DNA of 64,000 nt from a candidate division WOR-3 bacterium (GTDB lineage: Bacteria > Hydrothermota > Hydrothermia > UBA1063), in NCBI GenBank assembly GCA_039803545.1, contig JBDRYS010000002.1, positions 132,385 through 196,384 on the forward strand, in the 5' to 3' direction. The position numbers and the translations under genes were made by a program. Every line of letters begins with the position of its first letter. Position 1 is the first letter of the stretch. The notes beneath the pieces are model-generated. The model had not been told where the DNA came from, searched no databases, and saw only the letters and a list, made by a program, of their open reading frames with translations. Shown piece by piece: positions 20,955-31,214 of the stretch.

Positions 20955-20983
20955 ATTATACCGCAAAATTAAAAAATTGTCAA
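20955..20983 (-). promoter_or_regulatory. Internal promoter for minor pilin/pilY1 genes
   Basis: Read on the minus strand: TTGACA (20978-20983), a 17-nt spacer and TATAAT (20955-20960), a perfect consensus match. It lies in the only sizeable gap inside the pilus cluster, right after the FimT-like gene stop. Confidence 0.85.
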
Positions 20984-21547: not shown

Positions 21548-22741
21548 CTACTCCTTAACAATGTTCGGCGTCAGGAAAATCAAAATCTCTGACTTTCCCT
21601 TTTCTACCTGATCCCTTCCAAAGAGGTATCTTATAACGGGGATTCTCAAAATAAGAGGCATTCCCTGCTTTGCCCTTTTGTCTTTTTCAATAATTACACC
21701 ACCTATCATCACCGTTTCACCATCGGAAACCGTTATCTTTGTCTCCGCCCCTCTCTTGGAAGTGATGGGTTGTCCAGTAGCGGAATAACCCGTTAAATCA
21801 CCTGTTTCCGTTTTGATATTCATAACGACCTTACCATCGGGAATAATGTGAGGGGTAACCTCGAGCTGAATACCAGTCTCTTCAAACTGAACTATCGTAT
21901 TGCCTGCCATATCTCTTGAAGTCACCGGCACCCTGATCTTTGAGTATATAGAAGCCTTTTCATTGTCAAGGACCATTATCTTCGGCTCTGAGATGGTGTT
22001 CGCCTTGCTCTGCCCCTCAAGAGCATCGATAGCTGCCTCAACTTGAAGGGCTTTGGACCCCAAGTAGTGAACTGTCAGGTAGGTTGGATTTTCGGCCATC
22101 GGTTCACTATGCTGGGGTAAATCATAGGTCGCACCTTCAAAAGCGGGATTTCCGAATCTCATAGCCCTAAGTTCGGTACCGAGCTTGCGGGATTCATTAT
22201 AATCTACTTCTACAATTCTTCCAGTAATCAAAACCTGAGGATAGGGTTTATCAATCTGACTTAAAAGATCCTCAACTTTGTAGAGATTTACTCTTAAATC
22301 TGTCACTATTAAAGCATTAGAAGACTCATCGATCTTTATATCACCCCTTGGAGATAGCTGGGATTTCAAAACTTCCGCCACTTTGCGCGCATCAGCATAC
22401 CTCACCTTCAACACCTTTAAATCAAGGTCCGCCGCTGTCTTAAGCTGTGAGAACTCTTGCTGGGTCATAATAGTTATCATACCTTCACTTTCAATCATCG
22501 CAAGTCCATAGGCATCAAGGAGTGACTTAAGGGCCAATCTCCATGGAACATCCTTGATATTGAAACTCACCTTCTGGGTCACAGAGGGTGTCGTAATTAT
22601 GTTAACCTTACCTACCTCAGCAAAGGCTCTAAGGACAGTCCTTATATCGGCCTGTTCGACGCTCATCGTTATCGTGGCTTCTTGAGCAGAGACTAATGCA
22701 GAGGCAAGGAGCAAAAGGCCAAGCTTTTTAAACAATTTCAT
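21548..22741 (-). CDS. pilQ: Type IV pilus secretin PilQ (short form)
   Basis: 397 residues with a signal peptide ending near Ala19. Seen: an STN-like domain (VEQADIRTVLRAFAEVGKVN, PWRLALKSLLDAYGLAM), a secretin N1 domain (VLKVRYADARKVAEVL, SSNALIVTDL), and the secretin beta-barrel (VLITGRIVEVDYNESRKLG, SEPKIMVLDNEKASI, VTPHIIPDGKVVMNI, MIGGVIIEKDKR, LIFLTPNIVKE). It forms the outer-membrane pore for the pilus. It is short because the AMIN domains that open many PilQ proteins are on a separate protein encoded next to it. Confidence 0.92.
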   Translation of the reverse strand: MKLFKKLGLLLLASALVSAQEATITMSVEQADIRTVLRAFAEVGKVNIITTPSVTQKVSFNIKDVPWRLALKSLLDAYGLAMIESEGMITIMTQQEFSQLKTAADLDLKVLKVRYADARKVAEVLKSQLSPRGDIKIDESSNALIVTDLRVNLYKVEDLLSQIDKPYPQVLITGRIVEVDYNESRKLGTELRAMRFGNPAFEGATYDLPQHSEPMAENPTYLTVHYLGSKALQVEAAIDALEGQSKANTISEPKIMVLDNEKASIYSKIRVPVTSRDMAGNTIVQFEETGIQLEVTPHIIPDGKVVMNIKTETGDLTGYSATGQPITSKRGAETKITVSDGETVMIGGVIIEKDKRAKQGMPLILRIPVIRYLFGRDQVEKGKSEILIFLTPNIVKE

Positions 22742-22757
22742 TTATAAAACCTCCTTT

Positions 22758-23537
22758 TTATTTCTGTTCTTCCTCTAATTTTAGTTCAATTCTTCTTGTA
22801 AAGCCAAAATCAACGGTTGCAAAAATTACCCGGTCGGATTCAATTCTAACGACCCGACCGTTCCTTACCCTATCCCCCTCTTTTAAAACATAACCCACCC
22901 CTCTCCTGTCCTGAAGAAGGGCAATATTCCCCTCGTCAGTCTTAATTATGCCGAGAAGTTTTGCTTCACTCACATTTAGAAGTTCTTCCCCACCTGGTAA
23001 AGATTCTGGCTGGAAGGGGTCCTTTTTCCCACGGGAAGAGTAAAAATACTTTTCACCAAACTCCACTTTGTATGAAGGCTTCTTAGGTTGTTCAGCTGTT
23101 TTAGCTTGTTCTACATTCGTAGACTGTTCTGGAGCTTCACTTTTATAAGGTACTTCAGAAAGCCCGCCAACAAGGATTACAAGTTTTCCTTCCGCCTGTG
23201 AAACAGTGTAAGTCCTAAAACTATCCACATCAAGAACTATTCTTGCAATGGGTACAGGGTCCTTCCGGTATTGGGCACCCCTCATCCTTTGGATTCCGTT
23301 TTTTCCTACCACGAGAATCTTTTCACCAAGACCGTAAGCAACATTCTGGAGATCAACCACAATCCTTGGGGGATTAGCGAGGGTAAAATGTCTGAACTCT
23401 GGCACGCCCTCAGAAAATTCTAACTCTATTGCAACTCCTTCAGGTACATCTTTAATAGCGTAAGCCTTTAACAAATTCTGAGCAAAGGCACCACCCGTTA
23501 AAAATAAGGTAATTGCAAATAAAATTAGTTTTCTCAT
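22758..23537 (-). CDS. AMIN-domain/PilP-like fusion protein
   Basis: 259 residues with a signal peptide ending near Ala19. Residues about 23-125 form an AMIN domain (VAIELEFSEGVPEFRHFTL, PPRIVVDLQNV, RMRGAQYRKDPVPIARIVLD), which in PilQ and amidases binds peptidoglycan. After a Gln/Lys/Pro linker, residues about 167-259 look like PilP (YSSRGKKDPFQPE, EAKLLGIIKTDEGNIALLQD, GYVLKEGDRVRNGRVVRIE). PilP normally links PilN/PilO to PilQ, so this protein combines secretin docking and wall binding. It overlaps pilO by 4 nt. Confidence 0.83.
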   Translation of the reverse strand: MRKLILFAITLFLTGGAFAQNLLKAYAIKDVPEGVAIELEFSEGVPEFRHFTLANPPRIVVDLQNVAYGLGEKILVVGKNGIQRMRGAQYRKDPVPIARIVLDVDSFRTYTVSQAEGKLVILVGGLSEVPYKSEAPEQSTNVEQAKTAEQPKKPSYKVEFGEKYFYSSRGKKDPFQPESLPGGEELLNVSEAKLLGIIKTDEGNIALLQDRRGVGYVLKEGDRVRNGRVVRIESDRVIFATVDFGFTRRIELKLEEEQK

Positions 23538-24118
23538 CGCGTACCTCCTGTGGTTACTGAGGCCTGAGGATTATACACATAGCAGATGATTTGAAGCTTT
23601 GCTCGTACTGTCTGTCCACTTTCCCTTTCAGAACCTGTCATTCTCTCTACCTGCAGGTTATCTACTGTCATTATTCTCTCAGAGTTTGCAATAAAACTAA
23701 TAAAGGTTCCAAGTTCGTGAAAGCCCCCTGTAACCTCAAGGGATATGGGGTACTCTATGTAGAGTTCCTTAACAGTCGGGCTTTGAGGCTTAAAACTTAT
23801 AATCTTGATCCCAGATGTAATTGCCATTCCCGTAATCTGGGAAAGCCATTCCTCCATTCTCGCTTCCTGAGGCAGATACTTCTGGGTTTCTTCCCAAAGT
23901 GCAAGTAAAGAATCTTTCTCCCTTATAATCCTATCGTAATCCTTAACATATTCCCTTAGATTCTGAACCCTTGAGTACTCTTCTTTGTAAGCGCTCTCAA
24001 CCTTCCTCAATTCTCTGGCCTTCGATGCATAGACCGAATTCCAGAGAAAGATGAAGGTGAGAACATATACTATGACCGCTATTAGCCAGATCGCTGCCGG
24101 TGATTTTAGTCTCTCCAT
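23534..24118 (-). CDS. pilO: PilO-like inner-membrane pilus assembly protein
   Basis: 194 residues. One N-terminal transmembrane helix (about 10-30), a coiled coil (about 35-80), then a ferredoxin-like PilO domain with WLSQITGMAITSGIKIISFKPQ and LEVTGGFHELGTFISFIANSER. PilO pairs with PilN across the periplasm. Between it and the PilM-PilN gene lies a small lipoprotein gene, an unusual insertion. Confidence 0.87.
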   Translation of the reverse strand: MERLKSPAAIWLIAVIVYVLTFIFLWNSVYASKARELRKVESAYKEEYSRVQNLREYVKDYDRIIREKDSLLALWEETQKYLPQEARMEEWLSQITGMAITSGIKIISFKPQSPTVKELYIEYPISLEVTGGFHELGTFISFIANSERIMTVDNLQVERMTGSERESGQTVRAKLQIICYVYNPQASVTTGGTR

Positions 24119-24126
24119 AGGACCCT

Positions 24127-24573
24127 CTATTGAGTTTGCCGTTTAAGGTATATCGTAGGCAAAGTTGCATCCTTTCCTGGTGTAATACTAAAGCCGGTAA
24201 GCTCACCATAGGCAGGACCAATCAAGCTATCATGGTAGAAAGCCTGGATCTTTATGCCAATATTGGAGCAGGGAATCAATCCCTCATATTGTGTCACTGG
24301 TTCTACAACAAAAGTATAGTTGCCTGAGGTGTCACTTATAGTCTCAAGCATACTCCCCGAATAGGGATACTCTGCCCCTGGATCACCCATTAAATACAAT
24401 TTTGCGCCCTGTGCAGGTACAAAGACAAAAGTAGTTTCATTGTGGACTGTGTCAATTAGAGCAACCTCATAGCCCACCTTCCCGGTAACGGTTACAGTGT
24501 TATCAGAGATACTACTGCAAGATGAGAAGAGAAACGCTGCAACCAAAGCAATGCCAAGATACAAATACCTCAT
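24127..24573 (-). CDS. Small lipoprotein inserted in the pilMNOPQ cluster
   Basis: 148 residues. The signal peptide ends in a lipobox-like FSSC with lipidated Cys19. The mature part looks like a single carboxypeptidase-regulatory/transthyretin-like beta sandwich (VTVTGKVGYEVALID, ISDTSGNYTFVVEP, GKDATLPTIYLKRQ). The place between pilN and pilO suggests a pilus-associated periplasmic or outer-membrane lipoprotein, perhaps replacing the lipoprotein role of PilP or PilF. No named family recognised. Confidence 0.65.
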   Translation of the reverse strand: MRYLYLGIALVAAFLFSSCSSISDNTVTVTGKVGYEVALIDTVHNETTFVFVPAQGAKLYLMGDPGAEYPYSGSMLETISDTSGNYTFVVEPVTQYEGLIPCSNIGIKIQAFYHDSLIGPAYGELTGFSITPGKDATLPTIYLKRQTQ

Positions 24574-24588
24574 TTGTAAAACCTCCTT

Positions 24589-26199
24589 TTACTTCAATTT
24601 AACACTTAATTGAAAACTGGCATATTTTTCCTCCTGACCACCTGCAACTTCAATGGACAGGAGGTTCACCGAATCTACAATCGGCGAATTTCTTAAATTA
24701 CTCATAAATTGAGAAATACGAATGTTTGAAAGAGCTCCACCTGTTATGTTTAGATAGTCTCCATTTCTTCCTAAGGCCTCAAGCCAGCACCCTGAGGGGA
24801 TAACTCTGTTAATCTCATCCAGAAGCTGTACATATTTTGTTCTACCCTGCTGCAATTGAGCAATCAAGTCAAGCTTCCTCCTGGCATCTTCGATCTGCTG
24901 TTTAAAACCTTTGATCTCATCAGCCTTTCTTTGAAGTTCAACTTCTTCGGCCTGGAGTTGTGTAATTTGTTTCTTGAGGCCCGAGATTCTTCTTGTTGTG
25001 CCAACCGACAATGCAAGAATTCCTATTACAAGAAGGAGCCACACAAAGAGGGCACCCACTAAGTGAGGTAGTAAAGAAACCTCCTCAACCACTGGTACAG
25101 CCTCCATACCCGCTTCCGTTGGAAGAAGGTTTACCTTGTGGTCTTTTTTATAGAAGTGTAAAGCATTTCCTATGACAATGGTTAATAACGGTGCATTGTC
25201 CTTCAAACCTTTAACGCCTTCTTCAATAGCAAAGAGTCCTGTTATATCAAGGTATTTAATGTCAACACCGTACTTAGTTTTTATGAAATTTGCAAGTCCA
25301 TAGAGCTTGCTTCCACCGCCCGAAACGTAAATGTTAAATTTCTTTGAGCCTTCTGCAAGCGCTGGTACATATTTTTCCGGAGAAAGGAATCTATCGTGGA
25401 GAGAATCCATTGTATCATCAAAGGCAGATTTTTCAATGGCGGCAGTAGGGCCATTCAATGCGGTCTCCTCTGCTTCTTCTACCCTGAGATCAAAGAACCT
25501 GGAAAGGTTATCAACGTAGGATTTAATGCCCGTCGGTATTTCAACCATTTGCTGAATCTGACCATCCTTGATATGAATTAATAGGGTCACTTCATATCCT
25601 ACGTGCAGGAAGAGATTGTCTCCAGAAAGATTCTTAAGATCAAGGGCTTCAATTACCCTAAAGAGTGAAATAAGGTCTGTTGTTACCAGTGTAGGTTCAA
25701 GGCCAGCAGCCCTAACGATATCGAGGATATCGTATATGAAACTCAATTTTGCAGTTCCAACCAAGATATCCACAGACTCTGCAATTTGACTCACCCCAAG
25801 GATCTCATAATCCCTTACAATCTCCGTCGGGTCGACATGCAACTCTTCCTTGATTTTCCAATCCACAGCTTCTGCAAGTTTCTCTTTCTTCTTATAGTAA
25901 GGTATAACCATCGCCTTTGATTTGACTTCGCCACCGGCTATACTTACGACCACATTAGTAGAATCGGTTCCAAGTTTCGCATAGGCATCCCTGATTTTAT
26001 CAATCAGAACCTGTCTGTCTATTATGTCCTTACCCAAAATCACATCTGGAGGCACCTTTTCAAGAGCATAGGCCTTCAGCACTATATCCTTTTTTACCCT
26101 ATCGAACAGTGCAGCCTTAACATAGCGGGACCCAATGTCAAGAACGACAATTGGGCCCTTTACCTTACCTTTCCCGATTTTTCCTAATAAGGCCATCAT
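24589..26199 (-). CDS. pilMN: PilM-PilN fusion protein
   Basis: 536 residues. Residues 1-350 are the actin-like PilM ATPase: VVLDIGSRYVKAALF, VVVSIAGGEVKSKAMVIPY, EIVRDYEILG, YVSGGGSKLYGLANFI, and APLLTIVIGNAL. Residues about 352-536 are PilN. They start with the KVNLLP motif (355-360) that normally docks PilN's cytoplasmic tail into PilM. They continue with a transmembrane helix (about 379-400), a coiled coil, and a periplasmic domain (INRVIPSGCWLEALGRNGD). The two are usually separate proteins, so fusion makes the contact permanent. It follows the DnaA-like fusion gene by 10 nt. Confidence 0.88.
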   Translation of the reverse strand: MMALLGKIGKGKVKGPIVVLDIGSRYVKAALFDRVKKDIVLKAYALEKVPPDVILGKDIIDRQVLIDKIRDAYAKLGTDSTNVVVSIAGGEVKSKAMVIPYYKKKEKLAEAVDWKIKEELHVDPTEIVRDYEILGVSQIAESVDILVGTAKLSFIYDILDIVRAAGLEPTLVTTDLISLFRVIEALDLKNLSGDNLFLHVGYEVTLLIHIKDGQIQQMVEIPTGIKSYVDNLSRFFDLRVEEAEETALNGPTAAIEKSAFDDTMDSLHDRFLSPEKYVPALAEGSKKFNIYVSGGGSKLYGLANFIKTKYGVDIKYLDITGLFAIEEGVKGLKDNAPLLTIVIGNALHFYKKDHKVNLLPTEAGMEAVPVVEEVSLLPHLVGALFVWLLLVIGILALSVGTTRRISGLKKQITQLQAEEVELQRKADEIKGFKQQIEDARRKLDLIAQLQQGRTKYVQLLDEINRVIPSGCWLEALGRNGDYLNITGGALSNIRISQFMSNLRNSPIVDSVNLLSIEVAGGQEEKYASFQLSVKLK

Positions 26200-26209
26200 T
26201 AACCCCCTT

Positions 26210-27457
26210 TTATTTACCTACTTCGATAAAGGCACTAACCACTTTGTTTAAAAGATTTTCATCAATTCTTTCACCCAATCTCTTGTAGGTCAAAAGTTCA
26301 TTAACTATGGTTTCAATCTTTTTGAGATTTAAACCGGGCTTGCTGGCAATTTGGTCAATTACACTGGAAGGAAGTCCCTCTTCCCCAACGAACATCCTTG
26401 CAACCTTTCTTTTCAAATCTATCGAAGGCTCTTCAATACCTATAGTCATAAATTCGGTTAATAGTTGCCTGAGTTTACGATTTAAAGTAGGCATATTCTT
26501 TAAGGGCAAAGAGCAACTCACAACCGCCTGTTTGTCCCTTGAGACGAGATCAGATAGAACAGTAAGTAACGCATCCTGAGCAAAATCCTTGCCCACAAGG
26601 AAATCAAGGTCATCAAAAAGAAGAATGTCTACATCACGCAGAATTTCTAAATATCTATCGATATCCCTTTCCGTCTTAAGTTCTTTTAGAGTCGAGTAGA
26701 ACTTGTATGCGTCGATATAAATGAATCTCCTTAAGGCTTCGTTCTCGAGTATATAATTTGCTATTGCCTGAAGCAAATGAGATTTTCCACTGCCCTCTGG
26801 CCCAAATAGGAATACTTTCTTTGCTCCGACGCCTCTGGTCTCAGCAATATCTTTGCACAAAAGGAAAGCGTGCTTGTTGGTTTCATCTACCACAAAACTA
26901 TCAAAGGTCTTATCTTTTGCTATAAGTACGCCTATTTCGCCCCTAACTGTACTACCCGTAAAGGGTTCACTAATCTTTTCTGCAGACTCCGTTTCCGCAT
27001 AATATTTCTCAATGGCTTCCTTAATCTCGCTTACCTTCGAAATGAACGGTCTGATTTTCAAATCTGTAACGTTTTTCAACTCAGCGAGCATCTCCCTGTT
27101 AATGGGATTTGCCATTGCCACAGCCAGAGACTTACCCTTTTTTCGTATAGGTATCACAAGATACTTCCTCGCAATTCTTGCCGGAATGTGCTCTACCGCC
27201 TCAGGGTCGATATCGATATTTTTAAGATTCACATAATGAAGCATTGGGAAATTATCAAGAATGAATTTTACCAGTTGTTCTTCATTTAGGAATCCCTTTT
27301 CTACCAGTATCTCTTCAAGAGTCCCACCTCTTTCCCACTGTTCAGCGAGAGCGTTTTTGATAGCCTCTCTTGTGATAACACCACTTTTTTCCAGAAGCTC
27401 GACAAATGTTACTTTGACACCTGTTTTCTCATCTACCTTCGCATCTTTCTTCATCAT
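26210..27457 (-). CDS. Secretion-ATPase N-domain (MshEN/T2SSE_N) fused to DnaA-like AAA+ domain
   Basis: 415 residues. Residues about 15-155 resemble the N-terminal domain of GspE/PilB/MshE ATPases: two helical repeats (FVELLEKSGVITREAI; LEEILVEKGFLNEEQLVKFI), then ARKYLVIPIRKKGKSLAVAMA. The RLG residues associated with c-di-GMP binding are not kept. Residues about 183-395 follow DnaA domain III: TFDSFVVDETNKHAF, Walker A GPEGSGKSHLLQAIANYIL (219-237), Walker B DILLFDDLDFL (277-287), and SCSLPLKNMPTLNRKLRQLL. The DnaA arginine finger is replaced (Leu-Leu-Thr near 332-334), sensor II Arg appears as Lys, and the DNA-binding domain IV is absent. It lies where a pilus ATPase or regulator would be expected. 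A regulatory NTPase of pilus assembly is inferred. Confidence 0.8.
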   Translation of the reverse strand: MMKKDAKVDEKTGVKVTFVELLEKSGVITREAIKNALAEQWERGGTLEEILVEKGFLNEEQLVKFILDNFPMLHYVNLKNIDIDPEAVEHIPARIARKYLVIPIRKKGKSLAVAMANPINREMLAELKNVTDLKIRPFISKVSEIKEAIEKYYAETESAEKISEPFTGSTVRGEIGVLIAKDKTFDSFVVDETNKHAFLLCKDIAETRGVGAKKVFLFGPEGSGKSHLLQAIANYILENEALRRFIYIDAYKFYSTLKELKTERDIDRYLEILRDVDILLFDDLDFLVGKDFAQDALLTVLSDLVSRDKQAVVSCSLPLKNMPTLNRKLRQLLTEFMTIGIEEPSIDLKRKVARMFVGEEGLPSSVIDQIASKPGLNLKKIETIVNELLTYKRLGERIDENLLNKVVSAFIEVGK

Positions 27458-29358
27458 ATGCCCATACTCCTAAACAATTTAATTTTATCTTCCACATCTT
27501 TGAACCTGGAATCAAACACATAAACATTGGTGTAAAGTTCTTTTGCCTCGTGGTACCTTTTCATGTTCTCAAGCGTTAATGCAAGATAATAGTATGCCTC
27601 AATGTAATCCTTATCTACGGTTCCCGCCTCCTCGATAGCCTTTCTCAAGATTACCTCTGCGAACTCAAGGTCACCCCTTTCATAGAATATTTTACCTAAG
27701 TAAATCATAGACTGCAGCCTGTACCTTGGATCGCTCAGTAACTTCTGAAATTCTTCGATTGCAGGTTGATATAGTTTCATCTCATAATATTCCTTAGCCA
27801 CTTCAAACGGAGGGTCCGATGGATAAGGCCATTCCTCTAAGGATAGAATATCTTCTTTTATCTCTCTCAAAATTCTTAACAAACTCTCATACTTCTCTTT
27901 TTCTACTGTACTCTCAACCTTTTCCCCAACTCCAAATTCTTCCTTTACCTTCGTTGCAGGCTTCTCGGTAGGTCTTTTTTCTACTCCTTTCTCTGTCAAC
28001 GACCTTTCCGAGGTTGGAACCCCTTTCAAACCTGTCGTATCCTCTAACTTAGAAGACCTCTTCTCAGTCAGTGAGACCATCTCCTCATATTTCTTTTTTG
28101 AAGCTTCTACCTCTTCTTCTTTTAAAGGCCTTTTCAGTTCTTCAACCCTTTCCTCTTCCGTTCTCTTTTTCTCAACCTTAGGAGCAGTATAAGCAAAAGG
28201 TTCTGATGCAGCTTTCTCTTTTTCTACCTCTACTTTTTCTTTGAAGAATTTTTCACTTTTTTTCTCGGTTACTTTCTTCAAAGTGGATTCCCACTCTTTC
28301 TGGATCTCCTCAACCTCCTCAGGTGCTTCTTCAACGACCGTCTTGTATTCCTCTACAGGCGGCTCAGTGATTTTTCTATCAATTTTTTCAGATGGTTTAC
28401 TACTTATTTTCTCACTTTCCTCCGGCAACTCCACAACAGTAGCTTTTTCCCCGGTAATAGGTGGCTCTTCAAGGACAACAGTCTTTTCAGAAATTTGGTC
28501 CACTGGGATCTCTTCCTCCTCTTTAAATACAAATTTTTCCGAAGACTTTAATCCTTCAGAAGGCGCTTTTTGGGACTCCGAAGGCGGAACCCCTAAAAAA
28601 TCAGCAAAAGCAGAGGATGTTATAAAAGTTTTGGGCTCTTCTTCCACTTCTTCTTTTTCGATAAATTCTATTTTTTCCACCTCTTCCTTTTTTTCTTCTT
28701 CCTTCTTTGGTTTCTCTGAAACTGCAGCCCCTTGATCTGTTGGCTCGCTAAAAAATCCTCCTAATCCACCGATGTCTCCTCGTTCATAAAACTCTTGTGG
28801 TTGCGCAAACTCAATGCCGCTTTCAAGACTCAGCATAGCAAGAGATTCCGCAAGTTCTTGAACCCTCGTAAATAGTCGTTCGAATTTTGAAGCTTGCTCC
28901 GTGTGCTCCTGAATTACACTGGCAAATTCATTAATAAGATTAAACAATTTCCCAAGATGTACCGGGTCTATCTTAGGAAGTTTAACATATTCAAGGGCCC
29001 AATCCAAAGCCCTGTCAACATTGCCGCTCTCCAGCTCCATTTGAATGAGGTCTAAATAGACGTCATGCCTTTCCTTGTCAAGTCTCAGAATTTTCTTTGC
29101 GACAGATATTGCAATTTCTCGGAAATCTTGTTCCTTATACATCTTATAAGCTTTTTCCAGATATTCAAGAGCTTTTTCATGATTTTGCTTCCGGATATAA
29201 AGGTCACCGATAGAATTGAAAACTTCGGGGTCTGAGGTCACTTTAGCAAGTTCTTGAAGAACTAAGAGAGCTTCATCATATTTACCCTGCCCTATCAATT
29301 TTTGCGCCTGAAGCTTTAACTTCTTTACATCCACTCCACTACTTCCCTTGAATATCAT
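27454..29358 (-). CDS. TPR protein with long Glu/Lys-rich linker
   Basis: 634 residues, no signal peptide, so probably cytoplasmic. N-terminal TPR-like helical repeats cover about 8-180 (GKYDEALLVLQELAKV, PEVFNSIGDLYIRKQNHEKA, ALEYLEKAYKMYKEQ). A highly charged Glu/Lys/Ser/Pro-rich disordered segment spans about 215-490. A second TPR block covers about 510-634 (YEMKLYQPAIEEFQKLLSD, AYYYLALTLENMKRYHEAKEL). It overlaps the DnaA-like fusion gene by 4 nt. The architecture recalls scaffold proteins such as FimV or Tgl/PilF-type TPR partners of pilus machines, but no specific family is claimed. Confidence 0.75.
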   Translation of the reverse strand: MIFKGSSGVDVKKLKLQAQKLIGQGKYDEALLVLQELAKVTSDPEVFNSIGDLYIRKQNHEKALEYLEKAYKMYKEQDFREIAISVAKKILRLDKERHDVYLDLIQMELESGNVDRALDWALEYVKLPKIDPVHLGKLFNLINEFASVIQEHTEQASKFERLFTRVQELAESLAMLSLESGIEFAQPQEFYERGDIGGLGGFFSEPTDQGAAVSEKPKKEEEKKEEVEKIEFIEKEEVEEEPKTFITSSAFADFLGVPPSESQKAPSEGLKSSEKFVFKEEEEIPVDQISEKTVVLEEPPITGEKATVVELPEESEKISSKPSEKIDRKITEPPVEEYKTVVEEAPEEVEEIQKEWESTLKKVTEKKSEKFFKEKVEVEKEKAASEPFAYTAPKVEKKRTEEERVEELKRPLKEEEVEASKKKYEEMVSLTEKRSSKLEDTTGLKGVPTSERSLTEKGVEKRPTEKPATKVKEEFGVGEKVESTVEKEKYESLLRILREIKEDILSLEEWPYPSDPPFEVAKEYYEMKLYQPAIEEFQKLLSDPRYRLQSMIYLGKIFYERGDLEFAEVILRKAIEEAGTVDKDYIEAYYYLALTLENMKRYHEAKELYTNVYVFDSRFKDVEDKIKLFRSMGI

Positions 29359-31214
29359 AATAGATAATTATACTCATCAGTGCTCTTATTGTCAAGAAGT
29401 TGTTTAAATATCTCATTAACAAGGGCTTTTAAGCCAAGCAAATCTACAGGTGAGTCTTCTAAGTCTTCAATCAACAGCCTCAGACCATCCATAATGTACT
29501 TTTCAAAATATTTTTTTCCTTTAACCCTCGAAAGGTAACCATAGGCGCCCAGTGCTTGCATGTGTCTCTGAAGCTTAGTGAATTTAATCTCAAACTCAAG
29601 ATCGGAGCGTGAAACGACATTTTTCGAAAGGGAATTAAATTCATCAATGTAAACCTTTAAAAGTTCATCACGATAACCTTTCATAAAAGGCATATAAGGG
29701 TCGAAAATTAGAGAAGCAAGATCATAGCTTTTTGGACCCCATCTCAAGCCTGTAAAATCAACAATGGCAAGGGAACCATTAGGTTTAACCATGATATTCT
29801 GACTCTGATAATCTCGATGGAGTATGACTTTTTCAAATTTACTGCAAATATTAGCAAGTTTGTCAAGTTCTTTTTCTACCTCTTCAGAAACTTCCAAATT
29901 GGAAAACCTTTTCACAAAATTGTTAATGAAATGCATCTGCTCCCATCGAAAATATTCATAATCAAAGACAAACTCTTCAAAGTAATCAGCACCTTCCTGA
30001 AGAGGCCCGAGGGCGTGGAGCCTCGCTATAATTTTCACGGCATCACTATAATACTTAAGGTAATCTCTGTTGCCTGGGTACTTGAAAAAAGAATAGAGGG
30101 TTGTATCACCTAAGTCTTCCATATAGATATGATTTTTTGCTTCATCAACATCAACAATTTTTGGAACGGGAAGGCCGCATTTCACCAGAAATTCTGTGGC
30201 CTTTAGGTGCTTCTCAAATTCTTTTTTGTTTTCTCCATAGTCGCAAATCACAAAGCTTTTGTTTCCCTCGTAAACTCTCCAGAATTTCCGGTCAGAACCA
30301 CCAAGACCTACAAGGTATTTGTTTGACTCGCCGCCCATCGCCGATATTTCATCAAAAGAGATAATCCCAGCAGGTGAGAGAATACAATTCTTATATTCAC
30401 CCTGTTTTAATTGCACATTATCCAAAATTATAACATTTCTGAGAAGGGTGCCTCTTTCAACTTCTGGCTCTCCTTCAATCACGAGAAATCCGTCAAAGTA
30501 CAGAGGAGGTAAGGAGCTCTTCGCTTCCCTGATATAAACCCTTTCACCCCTTTTACTTAGAAGCTCAAAAATAGCCTTTGCATAGCTTACGGATGTACCG
30601 ATGTCATACCAGAATCCTTCCTTAGGCTCAAAAACCACTACCTTATAACCCTCTCTAAGCGCTTTAAGCCAGATTTCTTTTGCATCAAAAGGTCTCACTT
30701 CGAAATTCTCAAGTAATCTTTTCCTATAAACGGCGATTCCAGTAAAACCTACCCTTCCTTCCCCAATATCTTTAAGATACCCACCTTCAACGACCAAATT
30801 CTTCCTGCAAACCTTCTCAGAGACTACTAAAGTTATATCCGCCCCACTTTTTAAATGAAAGTTAACGACTGATGAGAGGTCAATATCGGAAAGCACATCT
30901 CCATTGTGAGCAAGAATGATGTCACTTTTGGCTCTTCTTGCCACATTGACAATGGCTCCTCCTGTTCCAAGGATCTTGGGCTCCTTTACAATCTCTACCC
31001 CCCTCAAATTTCTTGCAGCCCTTTCTACAACTTCGGCCAAATAATGGGTATTAATAAAAATCTTTACAGGATTTAAACTCTGAAGCCTTTCATAGACTCT
31101 TATAAGGATAGGTTTTCCGAGAACAGGTAAAAGTACCCTGGGCGTTACATTGGTTATGGGTCTCAACCTTTCACCGAAACCTGCCGAGAGAATAACAGCA
31201 TCAAGATTACTCAT
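29355..31214 (-). CDS. MurU-like nucleotidyltransferase fused to AmgK-like sugar kinase
   Basis: 619 residues from the ATG at 31214, which overlaps the namZ stop (ATGAGTAA). Residues 1-230 are a sugar-1-P nucleotidyltransferase: AVILSAGFGERLRP (6-19), GTGGAIVNVARRA, LAHNGDVLSDIDL. The usual Pro-Lys of the loop is Pro-Arg (25-26). Residues about 320-619 are an aminoglycoside-phosphotransferase-fold kinase with HRDYQSQN (466-473) and IVDFTGLRWGPKSYDLASL, the AmgK pattern. AmgK phosphorylates MurNAc/GlcNAc at C1, and MurU makes UDP-MurNAc. Beside an exo-muramidase gene this reads as a self-contained peptidoglycan salvage enzyme. A GlcNAc or other hexose substrate is the alternative. Confidence 0.82.
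   Translation of the reverse strand: MSNLDAVILSAGFGERLRPITNVTPRVLLPVLGKPILIRVYERLQSLNPVKIFINTHYLAEVVERAARNLRGVEIVKEPKILGTGGAIVNVARRAKSDIILAHNGDVLSDIDLSSVVNFHLKSGADITLVVSEKVCRKNLVVEGGYLKDIGEGRVGFTGIAVYRKRLLENFEVRPFDAKEIWLKALREGYKVVVFEPKEGFWYDIGTSVSYAKAIFELLSKRGERVYIREAKSSLPPLYFDGFLVIEGEPEVERGTLLRNVIILDNVQLKQGEYKNCILSPAGIISFDEISAMGGESNKYLVGLGGSDRKFWRVYEGNKSFVICDYGENKKEFEKHLKATEFLVKCGLPVPKIVDVDEAKNHIYMEDLGDTTLYSFFKYPGNRDYLKYYSDAVKIIARLHALGPLQEGADYFEEFVFDYEYFRWEQMHFINNFVKRFSNLEVSEEVEKELDKLANICSKFEKVILHRDYQSQNIMVKPNGSLAIVDFTGLRWGPKSYDLASLIFDPYMPFMKGYRDELLKVYIDEFNSLSKNVVSRSDLEFEIKFTKLQRHMQALGAYGYLSRVKGKKYFEKYIMDGLRLLIEDLEDSPVDLLGLKALVNEIFKQLLDNKSTDEYNYLL

Follow-up and report, generated by a model that had tools for sequence, protein, structure and literature searches.

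A DnaA-type AAA+ domain joined to a PilB-type docking domain in the type IV pilus operon of candidate division WOR-3 bacteria

Pilus motor ATPases have RecA-like folds, and those of the DnaA clade (DnaA, Hda, DnaC, IstB) have their known roles in DNA transactions. The window analysed here, a stretch of 64,000 nucleotides from a candidate division WOR-3 bacterium (contig JBDRYS010000002.1, positions 132,385 to 196,384), contains within a type IV pilus operon one ORF of 415 aa (26210..27457, minus strand) that joins parts of both worlds. An earlier note, made from the sequence alone, had read the protein as the N-terminal domain of a secretion ATPase followed by domain III of DnaA, and had proposed that such an ATPase was recruited to the pilus system.

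Domain architecture of the fusion protein

Both halves of this reading were borne out by profile and structure comparisons. The N-terminal MshEN domain (aa 17–156; 26990..27409, minus strand) consists of a four-helix bundle plus an alpha/beta subdomain, as in the N-domain of PilB/MshE, and is followed by a fast-evolving linker modelled with low confidence (aa 157–180; 26918..26989, minus strand) and by a DnaA-type AAA+ domain (aa 181–414; 26216..26917, minus strand), with Walker A (GPEGSGKS) at residues 219–226 and Walker B at 277–283, as had been claimed. In the Pfam search, which the earlier note had suggested, this single ORF matched MshEN (PF05157; 71 bits, E = 9e-20, cut-off 23.1) over aa 74–158 and Bac_DnaA (PF00308; 107.8 bits, E = 8e-31, cut-off 23) over aa 181–334, the wider extent of about 17–156 given for MshEN being that aligned to relatives. 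The two families were matched by all 19 members of one fusion alignment. Among NCBIfam models, PilB (TIGR02538) ranked best for the N half, and DnaA (TIGR00362, 1e-41) stood far ahead of Hda (2e-14), IstB (6e-12) and the also much weaker DnaC for the C half, with a TIGR00362 score (143.4 bits) below the DnaA equivalog score (343.9 bits).

An AlphaFold2 model built from 19 orthologues (pLDDT 82, with low values confined to the termini and to linker residues 156–174) matched DnaA domain III structures first (2z4r, TM 0.89 by target length), and its N-domain matched MshE (5htl, TM 0.66 by target length); the closest relatives in the PDB were the N-domain of T. thermophilus PilF and the DnaA proteins of B. 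subtilis and T. maritima. Neither Pfam nor the model showed a match to DnaA domain IV; the protein stops after domain III. The RecA-like T2SSE ATPase (PF00437), which the PilB and MshE of this genome do contain, had no Pfam match in the fusion. The possibility that the C half is a RecA-like PilB/GspE domain or belongs to another AAA+ family was rejected, since Pfam, NCBIfam and structure all favour DnaA. No NCBIfam family among the fusion's matches joins MshEN and DnaA, and in the open-access literature, to which our search was directed, no paper was found on a combination of MshEN with DnaA or on type IV pili with DnaA-type ATPases. The fusion is thus a new domain architecture within known machinery.

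As some MshEN domains are c-di-GMP receptors, recognised by a tandem 24-residue motif that was used in a relaxed form by Wang et al. (PMC5013675), this motif was looked for too. Even in its relaxed published form, it was found in none of the 23 fusions checked, nor in the genome's own PilB; the genome's own MSHA-type MshE carries both motifs, and 12 GGDEF matches were detected in the genome. The NCBIfam model for the c-di-GMP motif, NF053729, gave the fusion 44.1 bits against a cut-off of 38, a similarity at profile level in which the binding residues are lacking, and automated annotation may therefore wrongly label the protein as a c-di-GMP receptor. Despite this score, a receptor role was rejected on the motif, and a binding test would likely be negative, as the motif is missing from 23/23 fusions.

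The pilus operon and the distribution of the fusion

The operon runs in the order TPR gene, fusion, pilMN, small lipoprotein gene, pilO, AMIN/PilP gene, pilQ, minor pilin genes and a PilY1-like gene. On the minus strand, its first gene encodes a TPR protein (27454..29358) whose stop overlaps the start of the fusion by 4 bp (ATGA), and a perfect sigma70-type promoter (12/12, TTGACA-17-TATAAT; 29367..29395) is found 9 nt ahead of the predicted start of the TPR gene; this short gap points to either a leaderless mRNA or a later true start. Behind the fusion follow a fused pilM-pilN gene (24589..26199), whose product is the proposed docking partner, a lipoprotein-like gene without Pfam match that is found in several relatives (24127–24573), pilO (23534..24118), the AMIN/PilP-like gene (22758..23537) and the gene of the PilQ secretin (21548..22741), all on the same strand. 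A second perfect 12/12 promoter with the same boxes and spacing is located before a pilV-like gene (20955–20983, minus strand).

Of the 147 genomes searched in the WOR-3/Hydrothermota phylum, 33 carried orthologues with both halves in one frame, a count including three with a degraded or partly replaced AAA+ half; those relatives that bear names are MAGs of candidate division WOR-3 and Candidatus Hydrothermota. The presence of orthologues with both halves conserved in more than 30 independent assemblies led us to reject an assembly error as the source of the fusion. The survey of neighbours proposed earlier revealed pilMN directly downstream of the fusion in 33/33 fusion genomes of the phylum, with pilO/P/Q behind it, and a TPR homologue in 20 of the 21 fusion loci examined. 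By this synteny, the fusion gene is a conserved member of the pilMNOPQ operon in the phylum. Some other lineages of the phylum have pilM and pilN as separate genes, and their examined loci did not contain the fusion; nor was it found in the f22 and f13 loci checked, where a pilin-like protein precedes pilMN.

Outside this phylum, the fusion was detected in two of the nine genomes of a second, small phylum (G147 and G148; loci L040 and L041), with no recognised pilMN adjoining it in either locus; there, its neighbours encode a secretin, an ExeA-type AAA_22 ATPase, a TPR protein, MshE and GspF, corresponding to an MSHA/T2SS-type locus. In three other phyla, no fusion appeared in any of 702 genomes (E <= 1e-80, scoring the top candidates per genome, with no positive control). 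A contig labelled Candidatus Hydromicrobium (Actinomycetota; L059, PEXF01000113.1) contains a WOR-3-type pil operon with the fusion and is probably mis-binned WOR-3 DNA, as this was 1 of 35 genomes of its order. Phage records gave distant helicase-loader-like matches only, covering at most 73% of the protein.

Searches with the fusion/DnaA profile (E <= 1e-25) returned no match in eight genomes of families f3 and f9 (G009, G019, G028, G030, G032, G034, G036 and G038), in which DnaA is very divergent or missing and PilM is not present; DnaA was matched in nearly all the others. Two other DnaA-like proteins, one of 642 aa in family f16 (L147:8125-10053) and one of 885 aa in family f15 (L148:3102-5759), each contain two tandem DnaA domains; their neighbours showed no match to the pilus genes of the window.

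Regarding its origin, the MshEN halves of the fusions lie on one side of a branch with 100/99 support, apart from the MshEN domains of PilB/GspE, and are joined there by three standalone MshEN proteins from f17 pilus operons. These small proteins (L142:4243-4746, L143:8542-9033 and L144:5642-6076; 144–167 aa) have their genes upstream of the fusion, with a TPR gene on either side. The AAA+ halves in turn are separated from 36 DnaA sequences, including the phylum's own, by a 95/88 branch in a tree rebuilt after removal of long-branch rows (four of them fusions), which had disturbed the first tree. A single ancient fusion event followed by divergence would be the simplest reading of both trees. 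Between species, identities of the MshEN and AAA+ halves were 95 vs. 91%, 87 vs. 68% and 74 vs. 53%, so the MshEN half is under stronger constraint, in line with what a fixed docking surface would lead one to expect. Between the closest relatives (95% MshEN and 91% AAA+ identity), synonymous sites have nearly reached or have passed saturation, which points to strong purifying selection on both halves and makes dN/dS ratios unusable for most pairs. A mirror-tree comparison of the fusion halves with PilMN gave no signal beyond background (partial r 0.07).

Catalytic and nucleic-acid-contact residues

The Walker A Lys and the first Asp of Walker B (Asp-Asp/Glu) were invariant in the 33 fusion sequences tabulated. 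The earlier note had also described the arginine finger and the sensor II Arg of DnaA as altered, which is true of the window protein (Leu in the box VII region and Lys, respectively) but restricted to its own branch: most families of the window's class have lost the finger and its genus has the sensor II Lys, whereas the deep lineages (f12, f17, f21, f24, f36 and the second phylum) keep the finger (SRF) and the sensor II Arg intact. In E. coli DnaA, the arginine finger is required for ATP-dependent oligomerisation and intrinsic ATPase activity, and sensor II for ATPase activity (PMC5742627). By analogy, the ancestral fusion probably could oligomerise on ATP, whereas the window protein, for which self-activated hydrolysis is unlikely once the finger is lost, probably binds ATP and hydrolyses it poorly. 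The constraint on ATPase function is not uniform, as in family f7 (L134:7209-8729, L135:9629-11011) Walker A and B are kept and the DnaA lid has been swapped for about 180 aa without Pfam match, and in family f5 the AAA+ domain is strongly degraded.

DnaA domain III also binds ssDNA, through its H/B motifs (PMC5742627). These residues are not retained in most fusions: the hydrophobic residue of the H-motif has become polar or charged in most of them, and the conserved Lys243 of DnaA is Asp in the finger-bearing f12/f21/f24 clade (E. coli numbering, approximate, as mapped by alignment to the genome's own DnaA). Both changes argue against ssDNA as the ligand.

Elsewhere in the genome, another cluster contains the genes of PilB, PilC, a PilT-like ATPase and a pair made up of a histidine kinase and a sigma54 regulator. 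A DnaA protein of 448 aa is encoded separately, and an MSHA/T2SS-type locus includes an MshE gene of its own and one for an ExeA/MshM-type AAA_22 ATPase. Given these separate genes for DnaA, PilB, the PilT-like ATPase and PilC, the fusion is probably neither a replication initiator nor a pilus motor.

Proposed role and relation to known systems

Domain identity, the single fusion group, the pilMN synteny in 33/33 genomes and the separate DnaA, PilB and PilT-like genes give good support to the earlier proposal that a DnaA-clade ATPase was recruited to the pilus system. For the role of loader, also suggested in the earlier note, no evidence emerged. As for what the protein does in this system, PilB/GspE N-domains bind PilM/GspL through ND1 (PMC8389850), which makes contact of the fusion with PilM plausible by analogy. 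PilM serves as a socket for the motor, and the ATPases of extension and retraction compete for it; the role of the PilB N-domain itself is poorly understood (PMC11656802). A PilB-type docking domain, encoded next to pilMN and carrying an ATP switch that is not a motor, would be best explained as a regulator at this socket; we put at about 45% the probability that the fusion serves the type IV pilus stator as an auxiliary ATPase with a regulatory role, controlling motor access or assembly. The MshEN half would dock on the cytoplasmic domain of PilM, like the PilB/GspE N-domain, and the DnaA-type half would act as an ATP-driven assembly switch, forming ATP-dependent head-to-tail oligomers in the deep lineages and remaining, in the finger-less lineage of the window, bound to ATP with no self-activated hydrolysis. 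The fusion and the TPR protein may jointly occupy or bridge PilM sites and so determine whether PilB and PilT can reach the stator, or they may help in its assembly. More tentatively, the family might represent the first DnaA-clade AAA+ ATPase working off DNA: as a DnaA-like, ATP-dependent oligomer docked on PilM, it would gate the exchange of motors and constitute an unrecognised pilus component of a whole lineage.

Other explanations can be ranked below this one, and they are taken here in descending order. A possible, if doubtful, one is that the protein is a scaffold or positioning factor which, with the TPR protein, determines the place and time of PilMN platform assembly (a pole, for instance), its ATPase half mainly oligomerising and turnover being secondary. 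The almost constant TPR neighbour, the loss of the finger in most of the window's class, and the drift or partial replacement of the AAA+ half in f5 and f7 while MshEN persists would all fit; however, the Walker A and B residues, intact in 33/33 tabulated fusions, are hard to explain if the nucleotide were dispensable. It seems unlikely that, in the manner of Hda, the AAA+ half enters into mixed complexes with genuine DnaA and thereby couples DnaA activity to the pilus or surface state: DnaA itself is the closest family and the deep members retain the finger and sensor II used in DnaA–DnaA contacts and hydrolysis (PMC5742627), but the window's lineage has no finger, gene order provides no tie to dnaA, and the fusion group lies well apart from the species' own DnaA.

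Less likely still would be a cytoplasmic factor handling DNA in pilus-mediated uptake, with the DnaA domain binding incoming ssDNA. Type IV pili do take part in DNA uptake. The parent family's domain III is a ssDNA binder (PMC5742627), yet the polar or charged H-motif residue of most members, the Asp at Lys243 in the f12/f21/f24 clade and the absence of domain IV all speak against it. Finally, an additional or replacement motor in place of PilB or PilT appears very improbable. Although the PilB docking domain is shared, the RecA-like motor domain is missing, the genome has PilB, PilT-like and PilC genes, and self-activated hydrolysis is hardly to be expected of the finger-less window protein.

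The conserved swap, in which a pilus docking domain was kept and a replication-type ATPase gained, suggests that proteins other than PilB and PilT can be accepted by the PilM socket, and provides a natural test of whether PilM docking alone can control pilus dynamics. In addition, the DnaA domains of the fusions form a gradient, with finger and sensor II complete at one end and the finger missing at the other, in which function without DNA can be studied.

Among known systems, the PilZ-FimX regulators of PilB resemble the fusion in their proposed stage of action, that of PilB/PilM docking in pilus assembly (PMC8389850), but they have no ATPase, are linked to c-di-GMP and are unrelated in sequence. 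ATPases of the MshM/ExeA/GspA type (AAA_22), one of them in the MSHA-type locus of this genome, are likewise accessory AAA ATPases of pilus/T2SS loci, although from a different ATPase family and without an MshEN domain. PilB, PilF, MshE and GspE share with the fusion the MshEN domain (ND0 plus ND1), the flexible linker leading to an ATPase and the location among pilus genes; their ATPase is a RecA-like T2SSE domain and not a DnaA-type AAA+, and the fusion differs further in its lack of the c-di-GMP motif and in an MshEN half that forms its own group. DnaA domain III, taken together with Hda, DnaC/DnaI and IstB, shares with the fusion the AAA+ core and the DnaA signature motifs, with finger and sensor II intact in the deep fusions, and the Walker A-to-B stretch aligns with the DnaA region that holds the initiator-specific helices. 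Unlike DnaA, the fusion has no domain IV and mostly does not keep the ssDNA-binding residues; it bears MshEN in place of domains I and II, its AAA+ half constitutes a group of its own, and its gene is fixed in the pilus operon.
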